From Nioella sediminis (GTDB taxonomy: Bacteria; Pseudomonadota; Alphaproteobacteria; Rhodobacterales; Rhodobacteraceae): DNA of 64,000 bases. The DNA lies in contig NZ_MNBL01000041.1 of assembly GCF_001879695.1 (NCBI RefSeq), positions 124,001 to 188,000 on the forward strand. Direction: 5' to 3'. The notes below the pieces were generated by a model. It was not told the origin of the DNA. It did not search any database and worked only from the letters and a program-made list of their open reading frames with translations. Made by a program: the position numbers and the translations under genes. The stretch's first letter is position 1; each line of letters starts with the position of its first letter. Below are positions 8,885-50,064 of the stretch, piece by piece.

Positions 8885-8937
8885 ACCGGTAACATGGCTG
8901 ATCCGGGCTCTCCCTATTTCCCGGATTGGCAGAGCGG

Positions 8938-8967: not shown

Positions 8968-9045
8968 CCTGTAAGGTCCTATCAGCACACAAATAACCGC
9001 GCCGCGCCTGGGCGTGGCAGGGTTGTTTGGAAAACCGGAAAGCGC

Positions 9046-9366: not shown

Positions 9367-9503
9367 ATCTAGCCCTCCTGGAGAGAATTTTCACGAGTCA
9401 GGGGCGAAACGTATGGGCGGCGATGGACAAGGTCAAGCGACTGAAACACCCAAGCGCAATCATGTGATCGGCGCGGCACATTTCGCCCGGGATTGAGGGG
9501 GGC

Positions 9504-9549
9504 GCCCCCCCGTACACCCCCTGTACACCCCCCGTACACCGGGCGTGCA
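9504..9549. repeat. GTAC array with 11-bp period (copy 1)
   Basis: Three GTAC tetramers and one GTGC start at 9512, 9523, 9534 and 9545, exactly 11 bp apart, separated by mostly C-rich spacers (ACCCCCC type). A second array with the same unit lies at 30631-30667. Confidence 0.85.
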
Positions 9550-9560
9550 TATGAATCGCG

Positions 9561-9586
9561 GTTTCGCCGCGCATCGCGCGTCGACC
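9561..9586 (-). repeat. 26-bp palindrome-rich intergenic block (copy 2)
   Basis: The reverse complement of these 26 bases is identical to positions 21-46 of the window. The block contains CGCGCGATGCGCG and GTCGAC. A diverged relative sits at 59245-59269. Confidence 0.85.
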
Positions 9587-9706
9587 GGGGAGCGGCCCTC
9601 CTCAACCCCCCGCTTACGCGGGAGGCCTCGTCGGTCCGCGTTGCCACGGGATATCGGAGAGGACTGTGAGCCGGACCGAGCGGATCTCTGGTCGAGAGTG
9701 CGGGAT

Positions 9707-9743
9707 GCCTCCGGCGGAGGTATTTTTTGCCAAGATGAAAGGG
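9707..9743 (+). repeat. hairpin plus T-run intergenic element (copy 1)
   Basis: GCCTCCGGCGGAGG forms a 5-bp stem, followed by TATTTTTT and GCCAAGATGAAAG. Related copies lie at 57925-57958 (minus) and 59292-59323 (plus). Copy 1 sits downstream of addA but is oriented against addA transcription. Confidence 0.8.
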
Positions 9744-9779
9744 GCGTTGTGCGGGAGCGATAAGTGCGCTTGGCCTGTG

Positions 9780-12700: not shown

Positions 12701-13163
12701 GTGCGCGTTCGTCCATTTCGGTGAAGTTGGGGGCGACCCCGGCCTCTAGCGGGAAGCGGCGCAGGACGGCGGAGCAGAAGGAGTGGATGGTCTGGATTTT
12801 CAACCCGCCGGGTGTCTCGATCGCGCGGGCAAAGAGCGTGCGGGCATGGGACAGGAGCGCGGGGGTCAGGGTGCCTGCGTTCATGCCAAGCTTCAACAGG
12901 TCGTCGCGCAAGTCGGCATCGGGCTTCATTGCCCACTCGCCAAGCCGCTTGAACAGGCGGTTCTGCATCTCGGACGCGGCGGCCTTGGTATAGGTCAGGC
13001 AGAGAATGCGTTCGGGCGGCACATCTTGTAGAAGAAGTCGCGCAACGCGGTCGGTCAGCACCCGTGTCTTGCCGCTGCCCGCATTGGCCGACAGCCAGGT
13101 GGAGGCCGACGGATTGGCGGCGGTGATCTGGGCGGTGGTGGCCTCGTCGAACTGGATGCTCAT
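9780..13163 (-). CDS. addA: double-strand break repair helicase-nuclease AddA
   Basis: 1127 residues, full length for alphaproteobacterial AddA. The UvrD-type helicase begins with Walker A (SANAGSGKTRVL) near residue 27. Walker B follows (HILVDEAQDTSPAQW), then the motif region VVGDKKQSIYSFQGAD. The C-terminal RecB-like nuclease has the D-x-K core AVDFKSN. With AddB it resects double-strand ends up to Chi-like sites and loads RecA. The start overlaps the addB stop, so the two are translationally coupled and made in matched amounts. Confidence 0.96.
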   Translation of the reverse strand: MSIQFDEATTAQITAANPSASTWLSANAGSGKTRVLTDRVARLLLQDVPPERILCLTYTKAAASEMQNRLFKRLGEWAMKPDADLRDDLLKLGMNAGTLTPALLSHARTLFARAIETPGGLKIQTIHSFCSAVLRRFPLEAGVAPNFTEMDERAQAMLCADVLDGLAEGAGQGAVDALAAHVSGDDPMPLIRALLGKRLAFEQDWPDADIMAWFDLPAGYSATDLIAHVFHGDERDICQIVRQNLDPDNRNQGTNHRRLSAINWDDPGLNDIATLEEVFLTGSKTKTPDSPKIGSFPTKPIWAQMSAIHEPLEALMLRLAEARPIRRALVAAEKTRALHRFAQGFLPAYDKAKSALGWLDFDDLILATRRLLANSGVAQWVLFRLDGGIDHILVDEAQDTSPAQWDIVAQLAEEFAAGSGARADVDRTIFVVGDKKQSIYSFQGADPDGFDRMREHFAARLHDAEALFQSRVLAHSFRSAPPILRLVDEVFKGAASAGVGQDVTHIAFKQDLPGRVDIWPVVEKADSEEKPDWDDPVDQRADHHHSVVLARAIAGEIKRMIQTGTPVTVEGQRRPVTAGDILILVQRRSDLFHELIAAIKEQGLPIAGADRMRLAAELAVKDLTALLSFLATPEDDLSLAAVLRSPLCGWSEPALHDLAHGRGKTFLWRALQQRRDMDPDTVVMLEDLRNHADFLRPYDLLERILIRHHGRRNLLARMGNEAEDGIDAMLAQALAYERMEVPSLTGFTGWLQADDVQIKRDPGSAGDQIRVMSVHGAKGLEAPVVILPDTAYRQSNHSAPKLFAPESGPVCWAGRKDDSPEVMRDLFDEAAAREVEERNRLLYVAMTRAESWLIVAAAGDIAKGENEGWYPHILTAAQACNAAPFATPTGQGWRLETGDWTAMDHSTQPARAPSALPDWIATRPATRPRDTKPLSPSDLGGAKVLPGDGAGLDEDAAKLRGRRLHLLLEHLPDLPQSGWYAAAPGILAVEGELPDADLAELFEEATTCLTTPALAALFTPDALAEVTLTAPSPTLNRTLLGQIDRLILAPDHVLAVDFKSNATAPDRPEDTPDGILRQMGAYAEMLAAIYPDKRIDTAILWTRPALLMPLPAELTTPALIRARDDLK

Positions 13164-16114: not shown

Positions 16115-16793
16115 GGGTCACCATTTCCTCGGCCAGTCCGATCCCGTCCGGGTGGCCCACATCGGCCCAATGCCCCTTATAGGGCGTGCCGAACATCCGG
16201 CCCTGCGCCATCGCCGCGCGCCAGACGTCATGCAGCGAAAATGGCCCCTCGGGATAGCCGTCCAGAAGCCCCGCTTTCAGAATCTGCGCGCCGGTATAGA
16301 CCTCTCCCGCCTTGTCCCAGCCAAGCCTGCCCTGCGTATCACGGGCGAAATCGCCGCCCCCCTGCCGCCCCACGGCGCGCGATTGCGGGACCATCAGGGC
16401 CAGTACGTCCATCCGCTCCGGGTCCCATGCGGCGGCCAGCGTTGCCAGAGCATTGGGGCCGGACCAGACCGCATCGGCGTTGAGGGTGAAGATCGTGTCA
16501 GCCGCCAGCAGCGGCAGGGCGTGGCGGATGCCCCCGGCACTGTCGAGAATGACCGGCTGTTCCTCGGAAAACGCCACATCCGCCATGCCGTGCAGATGGG
16601 CGCGCATCTGATCGGCGTGGTGGTGGCCATTGACCACGATCCGCCCCACACCCGCACCGCGCGCCTGCGCCAGGGCGTGGTCGATCAGGGGCCGCCCCGC
16701 GACCGGGATCAGTGGCTTGGGGCGGGTCTGCGTCAGGGCGCCCATGCGGGTGCCGAACCCGGCGGCGAGGATCATGCAGGCGGTCGGCATCAT
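16107..16793 (-). CDS. murU: MurU-type N-acetylmuramate-1-phosphate uridylyltransferase
   Basis: 228 residues. A nucleotidyltransferase fold opens with ILAAGFGTRMGAL and then TRPKPLIPVAGRPLIDHAL, with the metal/substrate region TLNADAVWSG. MurU turns MurNAc-1-phosphate and UTP into UDP-MurNAc in the anomeric recycling route that bypasses MurA (the fosfomycin target). The assignment rests on the gene immediately upstream being AmgK-like. A generic sugar-1-phosphate nucleotidyltransferase is the alternative. It overlaps amgK by 4 bases. Confidence 0.88.
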   Translation of the reverse strand: MMPTACMILAAGFGTRMGALTQTRPKPLIPVAGRPLIDHALAQARGAGVGRIVVNGHHHADQMRAHLHGMADVAFSEEQPVILDSAGGIRHALPLLAADTIFTLNADAVWSGPNALATLAAAWDPERMDVLALMVPQSRAVGRQGGGDFARDTQGRLGWDKAGEVYTGAQILKAGLLDGYPEGPFSLHDVWRAAMAQGRMFGTPYKGHWADVGHPDGIGLAEEMVTHV

Positions 16794-17713
16794 GACCTCA
16801 GCCCCGGCAAAAGCGGCCCCATCGCCCCGGCAAGATCGCTAAACGCCGGGTGCGCCAGCGCGTCGGCGACATGGGCAAAAACGCGCGGCAGGTGGCTCAG
16901 GTACTCGGGTTTGCCCCGGTCCCGCGCCAGACGGCGGAAGACGCCATGAATGCGCAGGTTTCTCTGGAAGCTGAGCAGCGCGCATTGCTCGGCAAAACCA
17001 TCTTCGTCGATAGCCAGCGCGTCCGTGTACCGGACAGTCATGGCAGAGGCGATATCGTCAGGGATATCGCGGCGCGCGTCCTTGATGAAGGACACGAGAT
17101 CATAGCCCGGCGGGGCCAGCACCGCGTCCTGGAAATCGAGCAGGCCAACGCGGGTCAGCCCCAGCCTGTCTGGCAGCCACAGCAGGTTTTCCGCATGAAC
17201 GTCTCGCAGGGCAGGCACCAGCGGCGCGGTGAAGACGCGGGCGAACTGCGCCTGCATTTCCGAAAGCGCCGCGTCCGCATCGGTGCCATCCGGCAGCGCG
17301 ATCCGGGTCATCTCGGCCATCACATGCGGGGTCAGGGCGGGCAGGCTCCACCCCTCCGGGTGGCGGGCCAGATGGATCAGCACATCCGCAGCGGCAAGGC
17401 CCGCTTCCATCAGATCCGGCCCCAGGGTGGCAAAGCTTCGGTCGCCAAAATCTTCCAGCAACATCAGGCCCCTGTCCTTGTCGGACCCGATGATCAGCGG
17501 CGTGGACAGCGCCATGGCCCGCAGCTTGGCAGCAATGCTGAGGAACGCGTCAAAGGCGGCACGGTCCTCGGGGGGGGCCAGCATCAGCACCGCGCGCGCA
17601 TCGCCCAGGGTCAGGCGTTCATAGCGCCGGGCCGATGCATCACCCGCCAGCGGCACGCGTGTCGCGTTGCCCCAGCCATTGGTGTCGAGAAACTCCTGCA
17701 CAAGGGCACTCAT
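16790..17713 (-). CDS. amgK: AmgK-type N-acetylmuramate/N-acetylglucosamine anomeric kinase
   Basis: 307 residues from the ATG at 17713, which overlaps the tsaE stop; longer starts fall inside tsaE. It has an aminoglycoside-phosphotransferase fold with the catalytic loop (DVHAENLLWL) and metal-binding Asp (LLDFQDAVLAPPGYDL). It would phosphorylate MurNAc at C1 to feed MurU. Co-transcription of amgK and murU with tsaE is the standard arrangement in peptidoglycan recyclers of this type. Confidence 0.88.
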   Translation of the reverse strand: MSALVQEFLDTNGWGNATRVPLAGDASARRYERLTLGDARAVLMLAPPEDRAAFDAFLSIAAKLRAMALSTPLIIGSDKDRGLMLLEDFGDRSFATLGPDLMEAGLAAADVLIHLARHPEGWSLPALTPHVMAEMTRIALPDGTDADAALSEMQAQFARVFTAPLVPALRDVHAENLLWLPDRLGLTRVGLLDFQDAVLAPPGYDLVSFIKDARRDIPDDIASAMTVRYTDALAIDEDGFAEQCALLSFQRNLRIHGVFRRLARDRGKPEYLSHLPRVFAHVADALAHPAFSDLAGAMGPLLPGLRS

Positions 17714-18213
17714 GCGGGCACCACCAGGCTGAGCCGGTCGGCCCAAAGATCGGGGCGGGCGGAGGAGATCGTCAGCGCCCGCGCATCGTCTTGCCCCGGC
17801 ACCATCCGCAGCGATAGCCAAAGGGCGCGGGCAGGCATTTCATCGCCCAACCGGTCGGGCCATTCCACAAGGCAGATGGCCGTGTCAAAGGCGTCGGTCA
17901 GGCCCAGTTCATCGACCTCTTGCGGATCGCTCAGGCGATACAGGTCGGCATGCCAGATCTCGTGGCCACCAGCCTCGTAAGTCTGGACCAGCGTGAAGCT
18001 GGGCGACGGCACGTCCTCCACCCGGCCCTCGGCCGCTTGCAGGTGCTGGATCAGCGACCGGGCAAAATGGGTCTTCCCGGCCCCGAGATCACCATCGAGA
18101 CAAAGGATATCCCCCGGCGCAAGCCGGTCCGCCAGATGCAGAGCCAGCCGCGACGTGGCCTCTGGCGAGGGCAGCGTGGTTTCGGCAAGAACGGGGCGGA
18201 CGGGGTTCGGCAT
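17710..18213 (-). CDS. tsaE: tRNA threonylcarbamoyladenosine biosynthesis ATPase TsaE
   Basis: 167 residues. Walker A is DGDLGAGKTHFAR, and the family block PSPSFTLVQTYE and HADLYRL are present. TsaE is the ATPase that drives the TsaBD complex making t6A37 in ANN-decoding tRNAs. It heads the tsaE-amgK-murU-addB-addA operon. Its promoter would lie in the short gap 18214-18262 or upstream of the PAS gene. Confidence 0.95.
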   Translation of the reverse strand: MPNPVRPVLAETTLPSPEATSRLALHLADRLAPGDILCLDGDLGAGKTHFARSLIQHLQAAEGRVEDVPSPSFTLVQTYEAGGHEIWHADLYRLSDPQEVDELGLTDAFDTAICLVEWPDRLGDEMPARALWLSLRMVPGQDDARALTISSARPDLWADRLSLVVPA

Positions 18214-18262
18214 GGGCGCGAGTTTATCAAGGCCCCGCCGGGCCGCAACCGCGCCCGCGCGC

Positions 18263-19834
18263 TCAGCCCGACGAAATCAGCACCGTCTCTGTTTCGGCCT
18301 CCGGGTCCGGGCCGGGCAAAGGCAACGGCGCGGCGCCTGTCTGGAAGGCCACAAGGCTCGCCCCGCCTTTCAACGGGGCCAACCGGCAGACAAGGCATCC
18401 GCCATCCTTCAGCACCACCCGTTCGGTCCAGGCGCTGCGGTCGGCATAACCGCCGACGAAGTCGCGAATCTCGCCCCATAGGGGCGTGGGCGCGCAGGCC
18501 GCCTGCCAATGGCCCGTTGCCTCCGATACTGTTGCGGGTTCACCCTGCCATAGCGCCCGATAGGCACGGTTTCCCATGACAAAGCGGCCATCGCGGGAAA
18601 ACACCGCCATCGCCTCGGCACTGTCGTCGATGACCGATTGGTAGAGGTCCAGATCGCCGCGGAACTTGCGGGTCAGGGTCATTTCCTGGCTGATATCCTC
18701 GAAAAGGAAGGCCACCGCCCCATCCGCGTGGGGCCGCCCGATGACCCGGAAGGTCTGGCCGTTGGGCAGGTTCCACATCTCCTGGTAGGTGCCATCGCGC
18801 GCGGCCTGTTCCAATTCTCCCAGCCCGGCGCGCCAGGCCTGGTAGTTCTTCGGCTCCGGCATCCTCTGCTTTTCGCGCAGCTTGTCGAGGAAGGCGAACA
18901 GATCGGGCCGGGCCGACAGCCAGTCCACGGGCAGCGTCGACAGCGATACGAGCGCCGGGTTGAACAGCACCAGCTGCCGCTGCTTGTCGAAAATCGCCAG
19001 CCCGATGGGCAGATGGGCAAAGGTGCGCGACAGGGTCTGCACGAAGTCGCGCAGCGCGATTTCAGCGGCCACGACCCGGTCGATGGGTTGCGCCGAAAAG
19101 AGCTTACCATTGCGATAGCCGCGGCATGTCAGGTCGAACCAGAGCAGATCGTCCGCGTCCAGCGACATCCGCCGGGTCTGGCCTTCGGTCAGAGGATCGT
19201 CCGGGTCGAACAGGTTGCGAATCGGCCAGACCAGCCCCCCATCGCTGCCTTCGACCCGTTGCAGCATGTCGAAATACGCTTTGTTGGCCCAGATGTTCTG
19301 GCCCGCCGAATCCTGTTGCCATAGCAGCATCTGTCCGGCGTCCAGACCGTGGCGCAACAGGTCCAGTTCCGATTCCAGCGCGTCCAGCCCGGCCTGGTCG
19401 ATCATCTTGCGGTCCTGCCCCGGCTCCAGCGAGGCGACGGTGATCAGGCATCGCCCCTCGGAAACGCGGCCACTGATCGACAGCTCATCCCCGCCGATCC
19501 GGCCAATCAGCACGAACCCGTCACCCCGGTCGCGCAGCGCCTCCATCTTCGCGGCCACATCGGGGTTCAGCGCCGACAGGCTTTCGCGCAGCTCCGTCCA
19601 GGCGCCCACCCGGTCGCTCGGGTCGGTCAGCATCGCGTCGGTGTCGTCGAGATCCGACAGCAGATAGCCATCACGGAAGGCATAGCTTCGGGGCAGATCC
19701 AGCCCGCGCAGCATGACGTGGCGAAACCCGCCCCCGCCGCGAGTCAGCGACATGCCCAGGACGGCGGAAAATCCACCCGCGGCCAGGCTTATCCCCACCA
19801 GAAACAGAATCGTCGTCGGATCGGTCAATGTCAT
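18263..19834 (-). CDS. membrane-anchored PAS-domain protein without a kinase domain
   Basis: 523 residues. An N-terminal membrane segment (about 7-28, FLVGISLAAGGFSAVLGMSL) is followed by a region with PAS-like folds. A clear PAS_7-type unit is about 270-390 (HLPIGLAIFDKQRQLVLFN, GRPHADGAVAFLFEDIS), and another PAS is about 405-500 (SAEAMAVFSRDGRFVMGN). No HisKA or HATPase motif follows; the protein stops after a Pro/Glu tail. It resembles the sensor half of DivL-like alphaproteobacterial proteins. A full CtrA box and a perfect DnaA box lie upstream, which points to cell-cycle control. Its actual partner is unknown. Confidence 0.8.
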   Translation of the reverse strand: MTLTDPTTILFLVGISLAAGGFSAVLGMSLTRGGGGFRHVMLRGLDLPRSYAFRDGYLLSDLDDTDAMLTDPSDRVGAWTELRESLSALNPDVAAKMEALRDRGDGFVLIGRIGGDELSISGRVSEGRCLITVASLEPGQDRKMIDQAGLDALESELDLLRHGLDAGQMLLWQQDSAGQNIWANKAYFDMLQRVEGSDGGLVWPIRNLFDPDDPLTEGQTRRMSLDADDLLWFDLTCRGYRNGKLFSAQPIDRVVAAEIALRDFVQTLSRTFAHLPIGLAIFDKQRQLVLFNPALVSLSTLPVDWLSARPDLFAFLDKLREKQRMPEPKNYQAWRAGLGELEQAARDGTYQEMWNLPNGQTFRVIGRPHADGAVAFLFEDISQEMTLTRKFRGDLDLYQSVIDDSAEAMAVFSRDGRFVMGNRAYRALWQGEPATVSEATGHWQAACAPTPLWGEIRDFVGGYADRSAWTERVVLKDGGCLVCRLAPLKGGASLVAFQTGAAPLPLPGPDPEAETETVLISSG

Positions 19835-36520: not shown

Positions 36521-36577
36521 CGGCGATTGACCCACGGCGCGCGGGCGTGTTCGGTGTCGGGCAGAGAGGTGCCCGAC

Positions 36578-37870
36578 ATGATCGCCAATGAACGCCCCGT
36601 GATCGCCGACAGCCTGTGGTCCGCCACGGCGAACGCCGCGCCCGACTGCCCGCCTCTGGTGGGCGAGGTGAAGGCGGATGTCGCCATCGTCGGGGGCGGG
36701 TTCACCGGTTTGTCGGCTGCGCTCCATGCCGCCGAGGCGGGGCTCAGCGCCGTGGTGCTGGAGGCCGAAAGCCCCGGATGGGGCGCATCGGGGCGCAATG
36801 GCGGTCAGGTCGATCCGGGGCTTTATGTCGACCCGGATGAGGTCGAGGCGCGGTTCGGCCCCGACATTGGCGCGCGGATGGTGGACTACATGGGGCGGTC
36901 GGCCCGGATGGTCTTCGACCTGATCGAGCGGCACGGCATCCAATGCGATGCCCGGCCCGTGGGTTGGATCAGGGCGGCGCATAACGCGGCAACGCTGAGG
37001 GATATTCACGGCAAGGTGGACCAGTGGCAAAGGCGCGGGGCCGATCTGCGGTTTCTGGACCGGGACGCGCTGGCCAGGATGCTGGGGACCGGAGTCTATG
37101 CTGGCGGGCTGATCGACATGCGGGGCGGTAATCTGCATCCGCTCAATTACACGATCGGGCTGGCCGAGGCGGCCATTCGGGCCGGCGCTGCGGTGCATGG
37201 GCAGTCACGTGTTGTCATTGCCGGGCAGGAGGGCGCCACTCATGTGCTGCGCACATCGCGTGGCGCTGTCCGGGCTGGCAGGGTTTTGCTTTGCACCAAC
37301 GGCTATACGGACGGGCTGGCCCCACCCTTGGCGCAGGAGGTCGTGCCGGTTCGCTCGGTTCAGGTGGCGACCGACCCATTGCCGCCAGAGGTGGCGGCGA
37401 GCATCCTTCCGGGTCGGCAGGCGCCATCGGACCTGAGGCGCCTGTTGCTCTATTTCCGCATGGATGCGGCGGGGCGGTTCATCATGGGTGGGCGCGGGGG
37501 CTATGGCGACCGGGTGACACGGGCGCGGATGGAGGCGCTGCGTCGGGTCAGCGTGAAAATGTACCCGCAATTGGCCCCCTTTGGCTGGCGGCATGCATGG
37601 GGCGGGTTCGTTGCCGTGACACCGGACCATTACCCGCGTCTGGTACGGATGGGGCCGGGGATGATGGCGGGGCTTGGTTATAACGGGCGCGGCGTGGCGC
37701 AGGCGACGGCCATGGGAAAGCTGATGGCGGAGTGGGCGGCAGGACGGCCAGAGGCGGAGCTGGATTTCCCCGTGACCGATCCACAGCCCATTCCGTTTCA
37801 CGGGCTGCGGCGGCTTGGGGTGGCGGCGACGGTGCTGAAGTACCGAATGCTCGATGGCTTGGGCCTGTAA
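36578..37870 (+). CDS. FAD-dependent oxidoreductase (PuuB/OrdL-like)
   Basis: 430 residues from the ATG at 36578. The dinucleotide-binding loop is VAIVGGGFTGLSAALHAAEA, followed by SPGWGASGRNGGQVDPGL and near the C-terminus MAGLGYNGRGVAQATAMGK. This is the DAO fold of gamma-glutamylputrescine oxidase-like enzymes that oxidise secondary amines to an aldehyde, ammonia and H2O2. It lies 57 bases after the fusion gene and may be co-transcribed. The substrate cannot be fixed without relatives. Confidence 0.85.
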   Translation: MIANERPVIADSLWSATANAAPDCPPLVGEVKADVAIVGGGFTGLSAALHAAEAGLSAVVLEAESPGWGASGRNGGQVDPGLYVDPDEVEARFGPDIGARMVDYMGRSARMVFDLIERHGIQCDARPVGWIRAAHNAATLRDIHGKVDQWQRRGADLRFLDRDALARMLGTGVYAGGLIDMRGGNLHPLNYTIGLAEAAIRAGAAVHGQSRVVIAGQEGATHVLRTSRGAVRAGRVLLCTNGYTDGLAPPLAQEVVPVRSVQVATDPLPPEVAASILPGRQAPSDLRRLLLYFRMDAAGRFIMGGRGGYGDRVTRARMEALRRVSVKMYPQLAPFGWRHAWGGFVAVTPDHYPRLVRMGPGMMAGLGYNGRGVAQATAMGKLMAEWAAGRPEAELDFPVTDPQPIPFHGLRRLGVAATVLKYRMLDGLGL

Positions 37871-41187: not shown

Positions 41188-41271
41188 GGCCTTTTCCATT
41201 TCCTGAGTTTTCCAAAAACGACATTAACGGCGTCGCTTTTTTCCTTATTTTCAAGGGCGATGAAAAAACCT

Positions 41272-41320
41272 TTGACAATTTCACGGGCGCATTGTGAATG
41301 TTTCAAGCGAAATTTCACGG
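41272..41320 (+). promoter_or_regulatory. promoter region with direct repeats upstream of the XRE-cupin operon
   Basis: A perfect -35 hexamer TTGACA lies at 41272-41277 with a weak -10. The decamer AATTTCACGG occurs at 41277 and again at 41311, 34 bp apart (about three helical turns). The surrounding DNA is distinctly AT-rich. The repeats could be operators for the XRE protein encoded just downstream. Confidence 0.5.
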
Positions 41321-41334
41321 ACGTCGACTGAACC

Positions 41335-41889
41335 ATGCAACACCCCTCCCTCGGCGCTGACCTCAGATCCCTGCGCAAGCTGCGCGGGTTGACACTGGAG
41401 GATCTGGCCGCACGGTTGGGCAAATCGGTCGGCTGGATCAGCCAGGTGGAACGCGACATCTCCACCCCCCGTGTCAGCGACCTGCGCGAGATCGCCAGCA
41501 TCTACGAGGTGCCCCTGTCGCTGTTCTTCGGCAAGGCCACCGGCCCGGAAAACGAGATGGGCCGCGTGGTGCGCGCCGCCAATCGCCGGAAGGTGGGCGA
41601 GCAGGATGGCGGGCTGGTCGAGGCGCTGCTGTCGCCGGACCTCACCGATTCCTTCGAGGTGGTGCATTCGACCTTTCAACCCGGTTCCAGCCGGATGGAA
41701 CGGACATCCCGCCCCACACAGGAACTGGCCTTCGTCATGTCGGGCAAGCTGGATATCTGGCTCGATGACGATGCTTTCACAATCCGCGCGGGCGACAGTT
41801 TTCGCGTGCGCGACCAGTCTTACCGTTGGGCCAATCCCTATGAGGAGCCCGCCGTCGCAATCTGGGTGATCTCACCCCCCGTCTACTGA
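41335..41889 (+). CDS. XRE-family regulator with C-terminal cupin sensor
   Basis: 184 residues. The helix-turn-helix is LRSLRKLRGLTLEDLAARLG then SVGWISQVERDISTPRVSDL. The cupin (about 110-182) includes ELAFVMSGKLDIWLDDDAFT and GDSFRVRDQSYRWANP, with few metal-type histidines. PuuR-like regulators of this design respond to small amines or osmolytes. It is the first gene of a tight six-gene operon, so it probably controls its own operon. Confidence 0.92.
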   Translation: MQHPSLGADLRSLRKLRGLTLEDLAARLGKSVGWISQVERDISTPRVSDLREIASIYEVPLSLFFGKATGPENEMGRVVRAANRRKVGEQDGGLVEALLSPDLTDSFEVVHSTFQPGSSRMERTSRPTQELAFVMSGKLDIWLDDDAFTIRAGDSFRVRDQSYRWANPYEEPAVAIWVISPPVY

Positions 41890-41900
41890 AAGGATCCGCC

Positions 41901-44348
41901 ATGGCTGATTTCCCCACATCCGCAAAGGTCGTCATCATCGGGGGCGGTGCCGTTGGAGCATCCAGCCTCTATCACCTGGCCAAGAAGGGCTGGACGGACT
42001 GCGTGCTGCTGGAAAAGAACGAGCTGACCGCGGGATCAACCTGGCATGCGGCGGGCAATGTTCCGACCTTTTCGACCTCTTGGGCCGTCATGAACATGCA
42101 GCGCTATTCGACCGAGCTTTATGCGCGCTTGGGCGAAGAGGTGGATTACCCGATGAACTACCACCAGACCGGGTCGATCCGGCTGGCCCATTCGAAAGAG
42201 CGGATGCAGGAGTTCGAACGCGCCAAGGGGATGGGCCTGCAACAGGGCATGAACCTTGAGATTCTGACGCCCGAGGAGGTGAAGGAGCGCTACCCCTTCA
42301 TCGAAACGCATGACATCAAGGGCGCGCTCTATGACCCAAACGACGGCGATATCGACCCCGCGCAGCTGACGCAGGCGCTGGCCAAGGGCGCGCGCGACAT
42401 GGGGGCCAAGATCCTCCGTTTTTGCCCCGCGACGGGCGTGACGCAGAAAGAGGATGGCAGCTGGATCGTCCATACGGACAAGGGCGATATCGCCTGTGAC
42501 TACGTGGTGAACGCTGCCGGATACTATGCGCAGCAGGTCGGGGAATGGTTCAAACCCTATGGCGGGCGCACCGTGCCGATGATGGTGATGAGCCATCAGT
42601 ATGTGCTGACCGAAGAAATCCCCGAGATCGAGGCATGGAGCAAGGAAAACGGCCGCAAGCTGCCGCTTCTGCGTGACGTGGATGTGTCTTACTACTTCCG
42701 GCAGGAGAAGCACGGGTTCAACATCGGCCCCTATGAGCCGAATTGTAAGGCGGAATGGGCGAGCTCGCCCGACGAGGTGCCGAACGATTTCAGCTTCCAG
42801 CTTTGGACGGATGATCTGGAACGCATCGAGGACATCGTGGCCGATTCGATGGAGCGCGTACCGCTGGCCGCAACAGCCGGGATCAGCCGCATCATCAACG
42901 GACCGATCCCCTATGCGCCGGACGGGATGCCGCTGCTCGGGCCGATGCCCGGCGTGACAAACGCGTTCGAGGCCTGCGTGTTTACCTTCGGGATCGCGCA
43001 GGGTGGCGGCGCTGGCAAGGTGCTGGCCGAGTGGATCGTCGATGGCGCGACCGAATGGGACATGTGGGCCTGCGACCCGCGCCGTTACACCGACTACACC
43101 GACCACGACTACTGCGTCGCCAAGGGGATGGAGGTCTACGGCAACGAATATGCCATGCACTTCCCCTGGCACCGCTGGCCCGCCGCGCCGGACCGCAAGC
43201 TGTCGCCGGTGCATGAGAAGGTGAAAGCGCTTGGCGGCGTGATGGGTGACTATAACGGGTGGGAGAGGGCCAACTGGTTCGCACAGCCCGGCGACGATAC
43301 CAGCGAGGAGAGCACACACACCTGGGGCCGGTCCGGTCCGTGGGAGAGCCGGATCAAGGAAGAATGCGAAGCGGTGCGCGATGCCTGCGGAGTTCTCGAC
43401 CTGCCCGGCTTTTCGCGCTTCTGGGTGAAGGGCGAAGGCGCGGACGAATGGCTGCGCGGCTTCTGCACCGGGGGGATTCCCAAGGTGGGGCGTATCGGCC
43501 TGATCTATGTCTCTGACCACCGGGGCCGCATTCTGACCGAGATGAGCTGTATCCGGCTGGAGGAAAACAGCTTCGTCCTGATCACGGCGGCAACGGCCCA
43601 GTGGCATGACGGAGAGTTGGTGAAACGGTCGGTGCCTGCGGGCGTGACCGTGTCCGAGACCACCCGCGACCGGGACTGTCTGATCGTGGCTGGCCCCACA
43701 TCACGCGATGTGCTGGCGGGGCTGACCGATGCGGATCTGACGCAAGGCTGGCTGACCCATCAGCACGCGATCGTTGCCGGCAAGCCCGCTTTCCTGATCC
43801 GGGTGTCATTCACCGGCGAACTGGGGTGGGAGGTGCATGCCCAGAACGAGGATATGCCCGCGATTTACGAGGCGATCATCGCCGCAGGCGCCAAGCCCTT
43901 CGGCATGTGGGCGCTGAACAGCCTGCGGATCGAGAAAGGCTATCGCGCGTGGAAGGGTGATCTTTCGACCGACTACACGCTGTTCGAAGGCGGGCTGGAT
44001 CGGTTCGTGAAGCTCGACAAGCCGCAGGAGTTCACTGGCAAGGCGGCGCTAATGTCCGAGAAACAGCAAGGCTCGAAGAAGCGCTTCGTCACGCTGATCG
44101 TGGAGGCGGGCGATTGCGACGCGCCCTACATGTCATGCCTCTGGCATGACGGGCAGATCGTGGGCGAAACGACTTCTGGCGCCTGGGGCTACCGAGTTGG
44201 GGCGTCGGTCGCGCTTGGCATGGTGCGGGCCGATCTGGCCGTGCCGGGTACGGAACTGGAGGTGGAGATCTATGGCGAAAGGTTCCGCGCGGTGGTGCAG
44301 GAAGACCAACCGCTATGGGATCCGGAAAACGAAAGGTTGCGGGCGTGA
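41901..44348 (+). CDS. dimethylglycine dehydrogenase-like / GcvT fusion flavoprotein 1
   Basis: 815 residues. The FAD domain starts KVVIIGGGAVGASSLYHLAK. His49 in AGSTWHAAG matches the covalent flavin attachment site of dimethylglycine dehydrogenase and sarcosine dehydrogenase. A middle FAO domain is about 370-430. GcvT-type folate-binding domains fill 430-805 (IKEECEAVRDACGVLDLPGF, SFTGELGWEVHAQNEDMP). It would oxidatively remove an N-methyl group and pass it to tetrahydrofolate. A paralogue lies two genes downstream. It overlaps the next gene by 4 bases. Confidence 0.9.
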   Translation: MADFPTSAKVVIIGGGAVGASSLYHLAKKGWTDCVLLEKNELTAGSTWHAAGNVPTFSTSWAVMNMQRYSTELYARLGEEVDYPMNYHQTGSIRLAHSKERMQEFERAKGMGLQQGMNLEILTPEEVKERYPFIETHDIKGALYDPNDGDIDPAQLTQALAKGARDMGAKILRFCPATGVTQKEDGSWIVHTDKGDIACDYVVNAAGYYAQQVGEWFKPYGGRTVPMMVMSHQYVLTEEIPEIEAWSKENGRKLPLLRDVDVSYYFRQEKHGFNIGPYEPNCKAEWASSPDEVPNDFSFQLWTDDLERIEDIVADSMERVPLAATAGISRIINGPIPYAPDGMPLLGPMPGVTNAFEACVFTFGIAQGGGAGKVLAEWIVDGATEWDMWACDPRRYTDYTDHDYCVAKGMEVYGNEYAMHFPWHRWPAAPDRKLSPVHEKVKALGGVMGDYNGWERANWFAQPGDDTSEESTHTWGRSGPWESRIKEECEAVRDACGVLDLPGFSRFWVKGEGADEWLRGFCTGGIPKVGRIGLIYVSDHRGRILTEMSCIRLEENSFVLITAATAQWHDGELVKRSVPAGVTVSETTRDRDCLIVAGPTSRDVLAGLTDADLTQGWLTHQHAIVAGKPAFLIRVSFTGELGWEVHAQNEDMPAIYEAIIAAGAKPFGMWALNSLRIEKGYRAWKGDLSTDYTLFEGGLDRFVKLDKPQEFTGKAALMSEKQQGSKKRFVTLIVEAGDCDAPYMSCLWHDGQIVGETTSGAWGYRVGASVALGMVRADLAVPGTELEVEIYGERFRAVVQEDQPLWDPENERLRA

Positions 44349-45241
44349 CCAAGATCACCCTTCTGGACGGGTCTATCGGGCAGGAACTGGTGCATCGCGC
44401 CGGGACCCGCCCGACGCCGCTATGGTCCACATCTGTGATGCTCGACCGGCCAGAGCTGGTGCGCGCTGTTCATGGCGACTACTTCGACGTCGGCGCGACC
44501 ATTGCCACCACCAACACTTATTCAGTGTTGCGCGACCGGCTGCGCCCCGAAGGTCTGGAAGATCGCTTTGCCGATCTGATCGAAACGGCTCTGGCCGAGG
44601 CGGAAGCGGCGCGCGATGCCCATGGCGGTGGCCGGATTGCCGGGTCGCTTGGGCCGCTGCGCGCCTCCTACCGACCGGATCTCTGCCCGCCAGAGGACGA
44701 GGCTGCGACCGCTTATGCGGAACTGGTACGCCTGATGGAAGGGCGGGTTGACCTGTTCCTGATCGAAACCGTGTCCTCGATCCTGCAGGCGCGCGGTGCA
44801 CTGGCGGGCTGCGCCGGGACCAAGCTGCCGGTCTGGCTATCGGTGTCGGTCGATGATGAGAACGGCACGCGGCTGCGGTCGGGCGAGGGGCTGAGCAGCC
44901 TTGCCCCGGTGGTGGATGAATTCCGGCTCGACGCACTTCTGGTCAACTGCTCCCGCCCCGAAGCCATCACCACCGCCCTGACGATCCTGAAGCCGCTTGG
45001 CCTGCCCATTGGGGCCTATGCCAACGGGTTCACGCGGATATCCGACGGCTTCCTTCAGGACCGCCCAACCGTGGATGCACTAAGCGCTCGCAAGGATCTC
45101 GGCCCTTCAGAATACGCCGATTTTGCCATGGGCTGGGTCGATGCCGGGGCCACGATTGTCGGGGGCTGCTGCGAGGTTGGCCCCGCCCATATTGCTGAAC
45201 TTGCCCGACGGCTGACCGCCGCGGGCCATATGATCGTCTGA
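44345..45241 (+). CDS. homocysteine S-methyltransferase family protein (zinc type)
   Basis: 298 residues from a GTG at 44345 overlapping the previous stop. TIM-barrel methyltransferase with LLDGSIGQELVHR at the start. The zinc ligands are Cys202 (LLVNCSRPEAI) and Cys275-Cys276 (GGCCEVGPAHI), the signature shared with betaine-homocysteine methyltransferase and MmuM. It would move a methyl group to homocysteine, making methionine. The methyl donor could be a betaine-like or S-methyl compound processed by this operon. Confidence 0.88.
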   Translation: MTKITLLDGSIGQELVHRAGTRPTPLWSTSVMLDRPELVRAVHGDYFDVGATIATTNTYSVLRDRLRPEGLEDRFADLIETALAEAEAARDAHGGGRIAGSLGPLRASYRPDLCPPEDEAATAYAELVRLMEGRVDLFLIETVSSILQARGALAGCAGTKLPVWLSVSVDDENGTRLRSGEGLSSLAPVVDEFRLDALLVNCSRPEAITTALTILKPLGLPIGAYANGFTRISDGFLQDRPTVDALSARKDLGPSEYADFAMGWVDAGATIVGGCCEVGPAHIAELARRLTAAGHMIV

Positions 45242-45252
45242 GGAACAAGTAG

Positions 45253-47697
45253 ATGTCCAAGATCCCCTCCCACGCACGTGTTGTCATCATCGGTGGCGGC
45301 GTGTCTGGCTGTTCGGTCGCCTATCATCTGGCGAAACTGGGCTGGAAAGACATTGTGCTGCTGGAACGCAAGGTTCTGACCTGCGGAACAACCTGGCACG
45401 CGGCGGGCCTGATCGGTCAGCTGCGCGGTAGCCAGAACGCCACTCGTCTGGCGAAGTATTCCGCAGACCTATACGTGAAGCTGGAGGAAGAAACCGGCGT
45501 CGCGACAGGGATGCGCCAGAACGGCTCGATCACCGTCGCGCTGACCGAGCACCGGCACGAAGAAATTCTGAGGCAGGCCACTCTGGCACGCGCCTTTGAC
45601 GTGGATGTGGCCGAGATCTCGCCCGAGCAGGTGAAGGAGATGTATCCGCATCTTAACGTCTCTGACATCGTGGGCGCGGTGCATCTGCCGCTCGATGGTC
45701 AGTGTGATCCCGCGAATATCGCCATGGCCCTGGCCAAGGGCGCCCGGATGCGCGGTGCGCATGTGATTGAGGGCGTAAAGGTCACCGGCGTGACTCAGGC
45801 AAACGGCGCGGTCACGGGCGTCGATTGGGAAAGCGGTGGCGATTCCGGGCATATCACCGCTGATCTGGTGGTGAATTGCGGCGGTATGTGGGGGCGTGAT
45901 CTGGCGGCCCACTCCGGCGTGACCCTGCCCTTGCATGCCTGTGAACACTTCTACCTCGTGACCGAAGCCATTGAGGGACTGAACCGCCTGCCGGTGCTGC
46001 GGGTGCCGGACGAATGCGCATACTACAAGGAAGACGCAGGCAAGATGATGCTTGGCGCGTTCGAACCCAAGGCCAAGCCGTGGGGGATGAACGGCATTCC
46101 CGAGGATTTCGAGTTCGATTCTCTCCCTGAGGATTTCGACCATTTCGAGCCCATCCTTGGCATGGCGATGAACCGGATGCCGATGTTTGAAACGGCGGGG
46201 ATTCACACCTTCTTCAACGGGCCGGAAAGCTTTACTCCCGATGACCGCTACTACCTGGGCGAAGCGCCGGAGCTGAAAGGCTACTGGATCGCGGCAGGGT
46301 ATAACTCCATCGGTATCGTATCCTCGGGCGGCGCGGGCATGGCGCTGGCCCAGTGGATGGAGGATGGCGAGCCGCCCTTCGACCTGTGGGAATCCGACAT
46401 CCGCCGGGCGCAGCCGTTCCAGAAGAACCGCAAGTACCTGAAGGAACGGGTCAGCGAAACGCTCGGCCTGCTCTATGCCGATCACTATCCTTACCTGCAG
46501 GTCACGACCTCGCGCGGGGTGCGCCGGTCGCCCTTGCATGAGCACCTTAAAGCGCGCGGTGCGGTGTTCGGGGAAATGGCCGGGTGGGAACGGGCCAACT
46601 GGTTCGCCTTCGACGGTCAGGAACGTGAATATCGATACGACTGGAAAGGCCAGAACTGGTTCGAAAACCACAAGGCCGAACATATGGCGGTGCGCGAGGG
46701 CGTGGGTCTTTTTGACATGACCAGCTTCGGCAAGATCCGGGTTGAGGGCCGCGATGCTCTGGCCTTCCTTCAGCGGCTTTGCGCGGCTGACATGGATGTG
46801 GAACCGGGCAAGATCGTCTACACCCAGATGCTGAACAATCGCGGCGGCATCGAATGCGATCTGACCGTAACGCGGCTGTCTGAGACCGCGTTTTTCCTCG
46901 TGGTTCCGGGGGCGACCCTGCAGCGGGATCTGGCCTGGCTGCGGCGGCATCTGTCTGATGAGTTCGTCGTCATCACCGATGTGACCGCGGCTGAGGCGGT
47001 GCTATGCGTCATGGGGCCGAAATCGCGCGAGTTGATGCAGGCGGTCAGCCCCGATGACTTCTCGAATGAGGCGCATCCCTTCGGAATGGCGCGCGAGATC
47101 GAGATTGGCATGGGATTGGCCCGTGCGCATCGCGTGACTTACGTGGGGGAGCTTGGGTGGGAGATTTACGTCTCCTCCGACATGGCCTGCCACGTGTTCG
47201 AGGCACTGGAAGAGGCGGGCGCCGATCTGGGCCTGAAGCTCTGCGGGCTGCACACGCTGGACAGCTGCCGGACCGAGAAAGCCTTCCGCCATTTCGGCCA
47301 TGACATTACCGATGAGGATCACGTGTTGGAGGCGGGGCTTGGCTTTGCGGTCAAGACCGACAAGGGCGATTTCATCGGCCGTGATGCGGTCTTGAAGAAG
47401 CGCGAGGACGGTCTTCAGCGGCGGCTGGTGCAGTTCCGTCTGGAAGACCCCGAACCGATGCTCTTCCATAACGAGGCGGTGATCCGTGATGGCAAGATGG
47501 TCAGCTATCTGACCTCTGGCAATTACGGCCACTATCTGGGCGCGGCTGTGGGTCTTGGCTATGTGCCCTGCGAAGGCGAAAGCGCGGCAGATGTGCTGGC
47601 ATCGTCCTACGAGATCGAGATCGCGGGTAAGCGGCACAAGGCGATTGCCAGCCTGAAGCCGATGTATGACCCCAAGGCCGAACGGGTGAAGGCATGA
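45253..47697 (+). CDS. dimethylglycine dehydrogenase-like / GcvT fusion flavoprotein 2
   Basis: 814 residues, a paralogue of the gene at 41901 with the same domain order and size. FAD loop VVIIGGGVSGCSVAYHLAKL, covalent-flavin His49 in CGTTWHAAGLIGQLRGSQNA, GcvT domains after about 430 (REGVGLFDMTSFGKIRVEGR, VTYVGELGWEIYVSSDM). The region near the active site differs clearly from copy 1, so the two probably take successive substrates (such as dimethyl and monomethyl forms). It overlaps the next gene by 4 bases. Confidence 0.92.
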   Translation: MSKIPSHARVVIIGGGVSGCSVAYHLAKLGWKDIVLLERKVLTCGTTWHAAGLIGQLRGSQNATRLAKYSADLYVKLEEETGVATGMRQNGSITVALTEHRHEEILRQATLARAFDVDVAEISPEQVKEMYPHLNVSDIVGAVHLPLDGQCDPANIAMALAKGARMRGAHVIEGVKVTGVTQANGAVTGVDWESGGDSGHITADLVVNCGGMWGRDLAAHSGVTLPLHACEHFYLVTEAIEGLNRLPVLRVPDECAYYKEDAGKMMLGAFEPKAKPWGMNGIPEDFEFDSLPEDFDHFEPILGMAMNRMPMFETAGIHTFFNGPESFTPDDRYYLGEAPELKGYWIAAGYNSIGIVSSGGAGMALAQWMEDGEPPFDLWESDIRRAQPFQKNRKYLKERVSETLGLLYADHYPYLQVTTSRGVRRSPLHEHLKARGAVFGEMAGWERANWFAFDGQEREYRYDWKGQNWFENHKAEHMAVREGVGLFDMTSFGKIRVEGRDALAFLQRLCAADMDVEPGKIVYTQMLNNRGGIECDLTVTRLSETAFFLVVPGATLQRDLAWLRRHLSDEFVVITDVTAAEAVLCVMGPKSRELMQAVSPDDFSNEAHPFGMAREIEIGMGLARAHRVTYVGELGWEIYVSSDMACHVFEALEEAGADLGLKLCGLHTLDSCRTEKAFRHFGHDITDEDHVLEAGLGFAVKTDKGDFIGRDAVLKKREDGLQRRLVQFRLEDPEPMLFHNEAVIRDGKMVSYLTSGNYGHYLGAAVGLGYVPCEGESAADVLASSYEIEIAGKRHKAIASLKPMYDPKAERVKA

Positions 47698-48527
47698 CAC
47701 TGGCTGCCCGCCACGACCGGTTTGCAGAGCTGCACGGCGCGGGCTGTTTCGTGATCCCGAACCCGTGGGATATGGGCTCGGCGCGGATGATGGCGGCCAT
47801 GGGCGCGCAGGCGCTGGCCACCTCCTCGGCGGCGCAGGCCTTTACGCTCGGGCGGCCCGATATGGGCACGATCACGCGGGACGAGGCGCTGGCCCATGCG
47901 GAAGATATCGTCGCGGCGACCGGCCTGCCGGTGTCGGGCGATTTCGAGAACGGCTTTGCCGATGACCCAGACGGCGTGGCCGAGACCATCCGGTTGGCGG
48001 CGGAGGTGGGGCTTTCGGGCTGCGGGATCGAAGATACGCAGATGGTGGCGGGCAACCCGGCCTATGCGTTCGATCTGGCGGTGGAACGCATCCGGGCAGC
48101 CGTTGCCGCGGCCCGCGCCCTTGGTCGGCCCTTCGTGCTGGTGGCCCGCGCCGATGGCGTGATGAACGGCAGTTACGACCTGGCCGAAGGCATCCGCCGC
48201 TTGCAGGCGTTTGAAGCGGCGGGGGCCGATTGCCTCTACCTGCCGGTGCCACCGGGCAAGGCGGAACTGGTGCAGGTGCTGGCCGCTGTATCTGCCCCGG
48301 TCAACGCACTGGCCGCTGGTCCATTGCAAGACATGACGGTGGCCGAGCTGGCCGCCATGGGCGTGCGCCGGATTTCGACCGGCAGCCAGATCGCCCGCGT
48401 GACCCATGCCGCGATCCGCGATTGCATGGGCGCGATGCTGAACGACGGTCATTTCGAGCCGCTGAAACAAGCGGCCTCGGGTGACGATATCGACATTCTG
48501 CTGAATGGAGGAGAGGCAGATGACTGA
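47694..48527 (+). CDS. isocitrate lyase / PEP mutase family enzyme
   Basis: 277 residues. The active-site loop is VSGDFENGFADDPDGVAETI, with GIEDTQ after it, in the DxDxG style of the PEP mutase/oxaloacetate decarboxylase subfamily. The conserved barrel opening ATSSAAQAFTLGRPD is present. The isocitrate lyase KKCGH loop is missing. The reaction would be C-C or C-P bond breakage on a small carboxylate, but the substrate is unknown. It is embedded in the demethylation operon and may handle the carbon skeleton left after demethylation. Confidence 0.85.
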   Translation: MTLAARHDRFAELHGAGCFVIPNPWDMGSARMMAAMGAQALATSSAAQAFTLGRPDMGTITRDEALAHAEDIVAATGLPVSGDFENGFADDPDGVAETIRLAAEVGLSGCGIEDTQMVAGNPAYAFDLAVERIRAAVAAARALGRPFVLVARADGVMNGSYDLAEGIRRLQAFEAAGADCLYLPVPPGKAELVQVLAAVSAPVNALAAGPLQDMTVAELAAMGVRRISTGSQIARVTHAAIRDCMGAMLNDGHFEPLKQAASGDDIDILLNGGEADD

Positions 48528-50064
48528 GGCAATAGAACCCCAAGCGCGTAGCCGCCGATCCGGTGGCCGCGCCGCCCGCAAGGCCCTGCGCTCGGCACCG
48601 CCCGCGGAACACGCCCGGTCCATTCGGCCCGGTATGCCCGGCGGCAATTTGAAACCCCTGACGGATGCGAGTATCGAGCGCATCCACAAGGCCGCCCTTC
48701 AGGCGCTGGAAACCATCGGCCTGTCGGGCGCGCCGGAGTCTGGCATCGAGATCCTGACCGGGGCCGGGGCGATCCTTGGCGAGGACGGGCGTATCCGGTT
48801 CCCCGCTGCTCTGGTTGAAGACACGCTGGCCATGGCGGCGCGCGACATCACCCTGTTTGGGCGCGATCCGCGTTATGACATGCAGCTGTCCGGCACCAAC
48901 ACCCATTTCGGAACCGCCGGGGCGGCGGTGCATCTGGTCGACGTGGAAACCAATAGCTACCGCGAGTCCACCGCGCAGGATCTGCATGATGCCGCCCGGA
49001 TCACGCAGGCGCTGGACAATATCCATTTCTTCCAGCGGCCCATGGTGTGTCGGGACATTCCCGATAACCTCGATATGGATCTGAACACCATCTACGGCGC
49101 GGTTGCGGGCACCACCAAGCATATCGGCACCTCTTTTTCCGATCCCTCCCATGTCGAGAAGTGTTTTGAGCTGATCTACATGCTGGCGGGCGGCGAGGCG
49201 GCCTACCGCGAGCGGCCCTTCATCTCGAACTCCAACTGCTTTGTCGTGCCGCCCATGACCTTTGCAACAGAAAGCTGCGAAACGATGGAGGCCTGCATTC
49301 GCGGCGGAATGCCGATCCTGCTGCTGTCTGCAGGCATGGCAGGGGCCACGGCGCCCTCGACAATCGCGGGGGCAATCACGCAGGGCGTGGCGGAATGCCT
49401 TGCGGGTCTTGTCTATGTGAACGCCATCGCACCGGGGCATCCGGCGATCATGGGCACCTGGCCCTTCGGGCTGGACCTGCGCACCGGGGCCATGTCGATC
49501 GGGTCAGGGGAACAGGCGCTGCTGACAGCGGGCTGTGCCCAGATGCACCAGTTCTACGGCCTGCCCGGCGGCGCGGCTGCCGGGGCGTCGGACAGCAAGC
49601 TGCCGGACATGCAGGCGGGATGGGAACAGATGTGTTCCAACGTCATGGCCGGGCTGTCGGGTGTGAACATGGTCTATGAGGCGGCGGGGATGCATGCCTC
49701 TCTGCTCGGGTTCTGCCATGAGTCCCTGATCCTGGGCGATGACCTGATCGGCCAGGTCCTGCGTTGCGTGCGCGGGATCGAGGTGGATGACGAGACGCTG
49801 GCGCTCGACCAGATGGCCGAGGTCTGCCTGGGTGGGCCGGGCCACTACCTAGGCACCGACCGGACGCTGGCGCGGATGGAATCGGATTTCGTCTACCCGA
49901 AATACGGCAACCGGATGAGCCCCAAGGAATGGGCAGAGGCCGGCAAACCGATGCTGCTGGACGCCGCGACGGCCAGGAAACAGGCGATCCTTGCCAGCGC
50001 ACCGAACCTGATCTCGCCCGAGATCGACGTCGCGGTGCGGGCGAAATTCAATATCGTGATCTGA
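48520..50064 (+). CDS. MttB superfamily (trimethylamine methyltransferase-like), non-pyrrolysine
   Basis: 514 residues from the ATG at 48520, preceded by GGAGGAGAGG. A basic N-terminal tail (QARSRRSGGRAARKALRS) is followed by the MttB barrel (RIHKAALQALETIGLSGAPE, THFGTAGAAVHLVDVE, LNTIYGAVAGTTKHIGTSF). There is no in-frame TAG, so it is not the pyrrolysine enzyme. MtgB-like relatives demethylate glycine betaine and other quaternary amines to a corrinoid protein. No such corrinoid protein is encoded here. It overlaps the preceding gene by 8 bases and ends the operon. Confidence 0.9.
   Translation: MTEAIEPQARSRRSGGRAARKALRSAPPAEHARSIRPGMPGGNLKPLTDASIERIHKAALQALETIGLSGAPESGIEILTGAGAILGEDGRIRFPAALVEDTLAMAARDITLFGRDPRYDMQLSGTNTHFGTAGAAVHLVDVETNSYRESTAQDLHDAARITQALDNIHFFQRPMVCRDIPDNLDMDLNTIYGAVAGTTKHIGTSFSDPSHVEKCFELIYMLAGGEAAYRERPFISNSNCFVVPPMTFATESCETMEACIRGGMPILLLSAGMAGATAPSTIAGAITQGVAECLAGLVYVNAIAPGHPAIMGTWPFGLDLRTGAMSIGSGEQALLTAGCAQMHQFYGLPGGAAAGASDSKLPDMQAGWEQMCSNVMAGLSGVNMVYEAAGMHASLLGFCHESLILGDDLIGQVLRCVRGIEVDDETLALDQMAEVCLGGPGHYLGTDRTLARMESDFVYPKYGNRMSPKEWAEAGKPMLLDAATARKQAILASAPNLISPEIDVAVRAKFNIVI

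Follow-up and report, generated by a model that had tools for sequence, protein, structure and literature searches.

A six-gene operon of Nioella sediminis, a probable glycine betaine N-demethylation cassette with its likely corrinoid partner encoded in trans

In the genome of Nioella sediminis (Rhodobacteraceae; assembly GCF_001879695.1, 197 contigs) six tightly packed open reading frames (ORFs) follow each other on the plus strand at positions 41335–50064 of the window, the 64,000 nt stretch of contig NZ_MNBL01000041.1 (positions 124,001 to 188,000) that we analysed. They encode an XRE-cupin regulator, two fusions of a flavin adenine dinucleotide (FAD) oxidoreductase with a GcvT folate domain (DMG1 and DMG2), a homocysteine S-methyltransferase (HMT), a protein of the phosphoenolpyruvate (PEP) mutase/isocitrate lyase superfamily (PEPM), and a methyltransferase of the MttB family (Table 1). 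Such an MttB without a corrinoid protein at its side raises two questions: which N-methylated compound is demethylated, and which protein accepts the methyl group? An initial annotation, based on the letters of the window, had proposed a serial N-demethylation pathway other than plain glycine betaine breakdown, in which the donor may be processed without a corrinoid partner or the partner may lie elsewhere. Our data support the serial demethylation. With a probability of roughly 0.7, the operon is a rearranged and compact form of the Rhodobacteraceae glycine betaine N-demethylation cassette, with the corrinoid protein MtgC and the methyltransferase MtgD encoded in trans, an activity that is predicted from sequence comparison.

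In such a pathway MttB, as an enzyme of the MtgB2 type, would transfer the first methyl group of glycine betaine to the corrinoid carried by MtgC, a protein whose gene lies outside the operon. MtgD would pass the methyl group from MtgC to tetrahydrofolate, or MtgC and MtgE may use it for methionine. Oxidative demethylation of dimethylglycine by DMG1 and of sarcosine by DMG2 would each yield 5,10-methylene-tetrahydrofolate, with glycine as the result. HMT and PEPM would have accessory roles, and the XRE-cupin protein would regulate the six genes by way of a doubled palindrome that precedes the XRE-cupin gene.

The positions and spacing of the six ORFs were reproduced as first annotated, the junctions being, in order, an 11-base gap, a 34-base overlap, an 11-base gap, a 4-base overlap and a 23-base overlap. 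Pfam and NCBIfam confirmed the domain content of the six proteins and found no B12-binding domain in any of them, in agreement with the view that the operon itself has no corrinoid protein. Scans for sigma-70 promoters and terminators between 41000 and 50400 gave matches that were no more frequent than in shuffled sequences.

DMG1 and DMG2 both combine the oxidoreductase and the folate domain in one chain, and match dimethylglycine dehydrogenases of solved structure (4PAB, 5L46) over the full FAD/GcvT length, with 571–586 bits for DMG1 (best match 4PAB, 586 bits) and 448–455 bits for DMG2 (best match 5L46, 455 bits); the activities of both are predicted, after those of SPO3400 and SPO3396 (see below). 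The motif TWHAAG, which presumably carries the flavin-linked histidine, is present in 45/45 DMG1 and 41/41 DMG2 orthologues from a set of 45 loci that was hand-picked, often for adjacency of MttB and DMG1, so that counts of arrangements in this set are not frequencies. When the Ruegeria proteins were compared to all 11 dimethylglycine dehydrogenase (DMGDH)-like proteins of this genome, DMG1 was 79% identical to DMG1 of the window (next 40%) and DMG2 69% identical to DMG2 of the window (next 40%). Ruegeria MttB showed 75% identity to MttB of the window and 43% to the next of all nine MttB loci, and Ruegeria HMT 66% to HMT of the window with no second match among all three PF02574 loci. For each of these four Ruegeria genes, the window gene is clearly the best counterpart in this genome. 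The XRE-cupin protein, compared only among the loci examined, is 58% identical to the regulator of Ruegeria locus L228 (read from genome G043, with coordinates identical to those in G198).

Five Ruegeria genomes (L228, L268–L271) share the order XRE-LysE-GFA-DMG1-QOR-HMT-GbdR-like-DMG2, where GFA and QOR are domains identified in related loci. In Ruegeria pomeroyi, SPO3402 is annotated as LysE and SPO3398 as homocysteine S-methyltransferase (PMC4809877), while a predicted pathway for choline and glycine betaine has SPO3400 as dimethylglycine dehydrogenase and SPO3396 as sarcosine dehydrogenase (PMC4744692). The Ruegeria cluster order agrees with these four tags. By gene order, DMG1, HMT and DMG2 would correspond to SPO3400, SPO3398 and SPO3396, and the remaining tags of the SPO3396–SPO3403 cluster were assigned from the Ruegeria order; the cluster would hold orthologous XRE, DMG1, HMT and DMG2 genes in the same order as in Nioella (PMC4744692, PMC4809877). 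Beyond these genes, the cluster of the five Ruegeria genomes contains LysE, GFA, a gene resembling Zn-alcohol dehydrogenases and a GbdR-like regulator; MttB and PEPM, both part of the Nioella operon, do not occur in the 19 kb read. The GbdR-like regulator linked in relatives, represented by the protein of locus L222, is of the same wider family as GbdR but not an equivalog, as it stays below model NF052371 (118 versus 480 bits).

MttB is an uninterrupted ORF of 519 amino acids without in-frame UAG and matches PF06253 over its full length (371 bits versus a cut-off of 25, positions 1–485 of 500). Its Ala361 aligns with Pyl334 of the pyrrolysine MttB 7xcl, which confirms the assignment as a non-pyrrolysine enzyme. 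Gly139 and Tyr391 align with Gly110 and Tyr364, active-site residues of the corrinoid-dependent MttB. A residue pattern beside the pyrrolysine position, SD[SA]K, was kept in only 19 of 28 MttB proteins of the hand-picked loci and was not used as evidence. The nearest solved structure is MtgB (2qne/9yce, 210 bits), 2QNE being the glycine betaine methyltransferase MtgB of Desulfitobacterium hafniense; both proteins belong to the non-pyrrolysine MttB superfamily but they are distant, and the substrate of the window protein is predicted.

A further reference is found in R. pomeroyi, in which SPO2134 (MtgB2) was increased in N-osmolyte-grown cells, SPO2160 is mtgC, and MtgC and MtgD are essential for growth on glycine betaine (PMC12478193). 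SPO2134 and SPO2160 are 26 locus tags apart, and in 5/5 Ruegeria genomes a distance of 26.9–28.9 kb separates mtgC from the MttB orthologue. Since this distance fits the spacing of the tags, MttB of the window is probably the counterpart of SPO2134, an MtgB. The Ruegeria comparison uses distance alone, since too many of the intervening genes escaped an ORF caller that had been trained on the codons of the window.

In order to see how these genes are distributed, we scored their presence in 198 genomes of the family from 197 genera (cut-offs E ≤ 1e-150 for MttB, E ≤ 1e-240 for DMG1, E ≤ 1e-60 for HMT). MttB was present in 114 genomes, DMG1 in 122 and HMT in 102. Both MttB and DMG1 were found in 107 genomes, MttB alone in 7, DMG1 alone in 15 and neither in 69, which corresponds to an odds ratio of 70 (Fisher p about 6e-30; these statistics ignore kinship and are not corrected for relatedness). 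The two genes lie within 10 kb of each other in 35 of the 107 genomes, HMT and DMG1 occur together in 87 genomes and are within 4 kb in 63 of these, and all three genes fall within 10 kb in nine genomes, including this one.

Relatives of MttB were collected by a contig scan of genomes, from which the best 80 of 495 were analysed. The closest named locus among these is that of Nioella sp. MMSF_3534 (L042), with an MttB 98% identical. Among the loci examined, the complete six-gene set beyond the window was seen only in L042 and L096, both from Nioella, while parts of it recur across the family; a conserved neighbourhood of all six genes, as looked for on the basis of the initial annotation, was in these loci seen only in Nioella. 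In two other Nioella loci (L043, L044) DMG1-DMG2-MttB is accompanied by a LysR gene, and XRE, HMT and PEPM genes are missing at that place. The exact six-gene form is narrow, and the arrangement is not due to chance. In 72 of the 80 MttB relatives no DMG1 lies inside the fetched stretch. A class-I aminotransferase gene is found upstream of MttB in the same orientation in 35/80 (179 to 2303 bases away), and PEPM is near MttB in 13/80.

These components also occur in other combinations. Loci L247 and L250 have the order XRE-DMG1-aminotransferase-DMG2-PEPM-MttB beside ORFs which we take to be cimA- and cysS-like, and the standalone aminotransferase-MttB pairs of many other genomes have the same kind of neighbours; L236 also has an aminotransferase gene between DMG1 and DMG2. 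In a second group of loci a divergent LysR gene stands in place of XRE. Strain HTCC2255, with a genome of 2.3 Mb and three MttB, retains this MttB together with XRE-DMG1-HMT-DMG2 (L273). We infer that the split loci and the operons are rearrangements of one module that includes the aminotransferase, of which Nioella would have the compact form. As an observation on the LysR-type loci, in six relatives (L048, L237, L245, L249, L251, L252) the DMG1-DMG2-MttB cluster lies beside a HutC-type repressor gene (in L048 at 1–928; TIGR02018, 247 bits, above the cut-off) and Hut-like ORFs, presumably for histidine ammonia-lyase or HutF, and aldehyde and/or beta-hydroxyacid dehydrogenase genes then follow.

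For nine PF06253 MttB proteins this genome encodes three B12-binding proteins. Two are acyl-CoA mutases and the third is a single free MtgC-like corrinoid protein (contig C63, 14394–15086), whose best NCBIfam matches are two MtgC models and related corrinoid proteins; with 166–191 bits it stays below the exception cut-offs of the MtgC models (310–370). A gene for an MtgE-type homocysteine methyltransferase (methionine-synthase subunit) is 1.5 kb away, with a radical-SAM gene in between, and the MtgC-MtgE arrangement is the one published for R. pomeroyi (PMC12478193). An MtgD-type PF00809 protein is encoded on contig C175 (541–1230; NF005719, 412 bits versus a cut-off of 259). The MtgBCD(E)/split methionine synthase system of R. 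pomeroyi DSS-3 has in common with this genome a Pfam06253 methyltransferase, a trans-encoded MtgC, a pterin-type MtgD, an MtgE-type homocysteine subunit and several MttB per genome (PMC12478193). In Nioella, MttB shares an operon with DMG1, HMT, DMG2, PEPM and XRE-cupin, while the mtgB, mtgC and dehydrogenase tags of R. pomeroyi are far apart.

A corrinoid partner next door was considered and rejected for the family as well. An MtgC gene was present in 0/123 loci examined, and it was within 10 kb of MttB in 1/99 genomes with both positions listed, of which only 32 have both genes on one contig; a corrinoid gene consistently adjoining in relatives, named initially as the finding that would speak against the proposal, was not seen. 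Instead, an MtgC homologue (E ≤ 1e-30) is present in 185/198 family genomes, in two or three copies in six of these and in one copy in the rest. In seven genomes reached through named loci, one MtgC stands beside 3 to 12 MttB (E ≤ 1e-60). Of the 114 genomes with this MttB, 109 have MtgC, and three of the five others are incomplete assemblies (76–86%). The partner of the operon MttB is most likely MtgC, encoded in trans with MtgD, as would be expected from the R. pomeroyi precedent (PMC12478193). This supports the suggestion that the partner lies elsewhere.

Several points weigh against glycine betaine as substrate or against the assignments behind it. The functions of SPO3400 and SPO3396 are predictions in the source paper (PMC4744692), and in the Rhodobacteraceae studied the sarcosine step was assigned to soxBDAG (PMC7574528). 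The match of MttB to MtgB is modest (210 bits). R. pomeroyi itself is outside the genome set examined, and the tags were assigned from gene order or distance. A second MttB-family protein, SPO2108, was increased along with SPO2134 (PMC12478193) and is an alternative counterpart of MttB of the window; furthermore, an increase on N-osmolytes is not activity. At the cut-off used, 35 of the 122 genomes with DMG1 have no HMT, and 15 genomes have HMT without DMG1. MtgC is also present in 76/84 family genomes without this MttB; because it is nearly universal in the family, its presence provides a necessary component and is not a signal of co-occurrence. Finally, HMT, PEPM and the linked aminotransferase are unnecessary for plain glycine betaine breakdown, and the linkage of aminotransferase and PEPM leaves room for another substrate.

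HMT has Cys212 and a GGCC motif with Cys285 and Cys286 (GGCC kept in 22/22 orthologues), which we take to be the zinc ligands, and stays below the models for betaine–homocysteine methyltransferase (NF005718, 70 versus 338 bits) and for the MmuM type (NF007020, 128 versus 215 bits). The ATG of its ORF at 44315 sits inside DMG1, and the Ruegeria protein aligns from 44345, a GTG in the window; HMT may in fact begin 30 bases after this ATG. The nearest solved structure to PEPM is 4lsb (208 bits), named only "lyase/mutase". The motif K[KR]CGH, presumably the catalytic cysteine loop of isocitrate and methylisocitrate lyases, was found in 0/10 PEPM orthologues checked, and PEPM stays below the prpB model (73.5 versus 354 bits). 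Since PEPM is without the lyase cysteine loop, a cut of the carbon skeleton, as deduced earlier from its superfamily, is not supported.

The best surviving alternative is that the module demethylates another N-trimethylated amino acid (e.g., the betaine of homoserine, alanine or beta-alanine), after which the linked class-I aminotransferase would transaminate the freed amino acid and PEPM would act on the 2-oxo acid, again with MtgC and MtgD in trans. The aminotransferase and PEPM genes close to MttB, the aminotransferase between the two dehydrogenases, a LysE/RhtB-type exporter that relatives have in the cluster (93 bits versus a cut-off of 209 for homoserine efflux), and the aldehyde and beta-hydroxyacid dehydrogenase genes that adjoin MttB in some relatives would all be unneeded for glycine betaine, and fit such a substrate. 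However, DMG1 and DMG2 are syntenic with the predicted dimethylglycine and sarcosine dehydrogenases, MttB is probably the MtgB that increases on N-osmolytes, and joint presence of MttB and DMG1 in 107/198 genomes fits a very common substrate. We consider this alternative possible but unlikely. The same holds for its extended form, put forward here as a tentative idea, in which the conserved XRE-cupin/DMG1/HMT/DMG2/aminotransferase/PEPM/MttB module would degrade some trimethylated amino acid, but not glycine betaine, to its 2-oxo acid, with MtgC as a shared hub and with control by the XRE-cupin regulator through a doubled TGAAA-N13-TTTCA operator. The initial exclusion of plain glycine betaine breakdown is not upheld, as DMG1, HMT and DMG2 correspond by gene order to SPO3400, SPO3398 and SPO3396, of which the first and last are predicted for the betaine pathway, and MttB is probably SPO2134.

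Much less can be said for a corrinoid-free reaction of MttB or HMT, in which a methyl group would go from betaine directly to homocysteine through HMT, as in betaine–homocysteine methyltransferase. HMT is part of the operon and close to DMG1 in most genomes with both, and in five genomes with this MttB no MtgC was seen, three of them being the incomplete assemblies. The presence of MtgC in the other 109 genomes and the alignment of Gly139 and Tyr391 with residues of corrinoid-dependent MttB argue against it, and the protein that meets the NF005718 model is not HMT but is encoded on C63 (596 bits). No evidence for corrinoid-free processing of the donor was found, and we regard it as highly improbable. 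Degradation of homarine or trigonelline has next to no chance and was dropped: such N-methylated compounds are marine substrates and a conserved homarine pathway has been reported, but the sentence citing it ties homarine to Mgd and not to MttB/DMGDH genes, and Pfam and NCBIfam revealed no ring-opening oxygenase or hydrolase among the six proteins.

Glycine betaine stays the most likely substrate. The upstream regions were inspected for a site from which the XRE-cupin protein may act. Of 34 regions of 220 bases before the XRE gene, which include three Nioella and several Ruegeria and are not independent, 33 carry the core TGAAA-N13-TTTCA, with the consensus CGTGAAAAAA-n7-TTTTTTCACG. When the bases were shuffled (30 rounds), no dyad was shared by more than two of the 34 regions. 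In total 56 sites were counted; the operator is doubled in 23/33 loci, with a spacing of 39 bp in 17/23 and of 34 bp in the window. In the whole window only two sites exceed 12 bits with the position weight matrix (PWM), both directly before the XRE start. These data suggest that the XRE-cupin protein binds the palindrome.

No site above 12 was found at the LysR-type DMG1 loci (0/17, highest 9.2). Extension of the regulon to standalone MttB and aminotransferase genes was rejected, with a PWM score above 10 before 3/72 MttB genes (versus 1/1267 control windows) and sites before 0/35 aminotransferase genes. Because the operator is mostly absent there, control of the split MttB locus by the XRE protein is improbable in most genomes. 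In our literature search an XRE-cupin regulator of this pathway was not found, and for the R. pomeroyi tags of the cluster the search gave no papers beyond those cited here. The palindromic operator and the link at the level of the module are the new points; the rest is largely explained by published work.

Table 1. Genes of the operon and candidate operator sites (window positions).
Feature	Position	Strand	Support
Operator site 1, TGAAA-N13-TTTCA palindrome, proposed for XRE-cupin	41257..41287		PWM 27.0
Operator site 2, weaker, 34 bp downstream, no exact core match	41291..41321		PWM 16.1
XRE-cupin transcription regulator	41335..41889	+	Pfam HTH_31/HTH_3 and Cupin_2
DMG1, FAD oxidoreductase/GcvT fusion, predicted dimethylglycine dehydrogenase (putative SPO3400 counterpart)	41901..44348	+	DAO, FAO_M, GCV_T, GCV_T_C
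HMT, zinc-type homocysteine S-methyltransferase (putative SPO3398 counterpart)	44315..45241	+	PF02574, 210 bits
DMG2, second FAD/GcvT fusion, predicted sarcosine dehydrogenase (putative SPO3396 counterpart)	45253..47697	+	DAO, FAO_M, GCV_T, GCV_T_C
PEPM, PEP-mutase/isocitrate-lyase superfamily, without lyase cysteine loop, putative accessory role	47694..48527	+	PF13714, 240 bits
MttB, non-pyrrolysine quaternary-amine methyltransferase, probable MtgB2 (SPO2134 counterpart)	48505..50064	+	PF06253, 371 bits

The same genome has other loci of this kind. At L127 (contig C181, 12000–31000) a second MttB is encoded with two DMGDH/GcvT fusions, a class-III aminotransferase and, downstream, a gamma-glutamyltranspeptidase (8593–18933 of that locus), possibly a betaine pathway that runs in parallel on a different substrate. 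At L124 (C164) and L126 (C128) MttB is followed by a flavin mononucleotide (FMN) enzyme of the PF00724 plus Pyr_redox_2 type, and C164 also has a DMGDH fusion. At L128 (contig C188, 2280–6244, minus strand) a DMGDH/GcvT fusion lies directly upstream of another MttB. Within the window, 3.5 kb upstream of the operon, 36575–37867 encodes an FAD-dependent oxidoreductase that is most similar to the L-pipecolate oxidase AmaA (330 bits versus a cut-off of 600).

On the basis of orthology, synteny and co-occurrence, our analysis joins into one module gene sets known piecemeal from roseobacters: an MtgB candidate, the SPO3400 and SPO3396 dehydrogenases, and a homocysteine methyltransferase. A candidate operator is now available for the XRE-cupin regulator of this module. 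It also illustrates the sharing of one corrinoid protein, as MtgC is single in all but a few genomes that have it while MttB proteins are several, both here and in the seven other genomes. In this family, an MttB gene usually has no corrinoid gene beside it.

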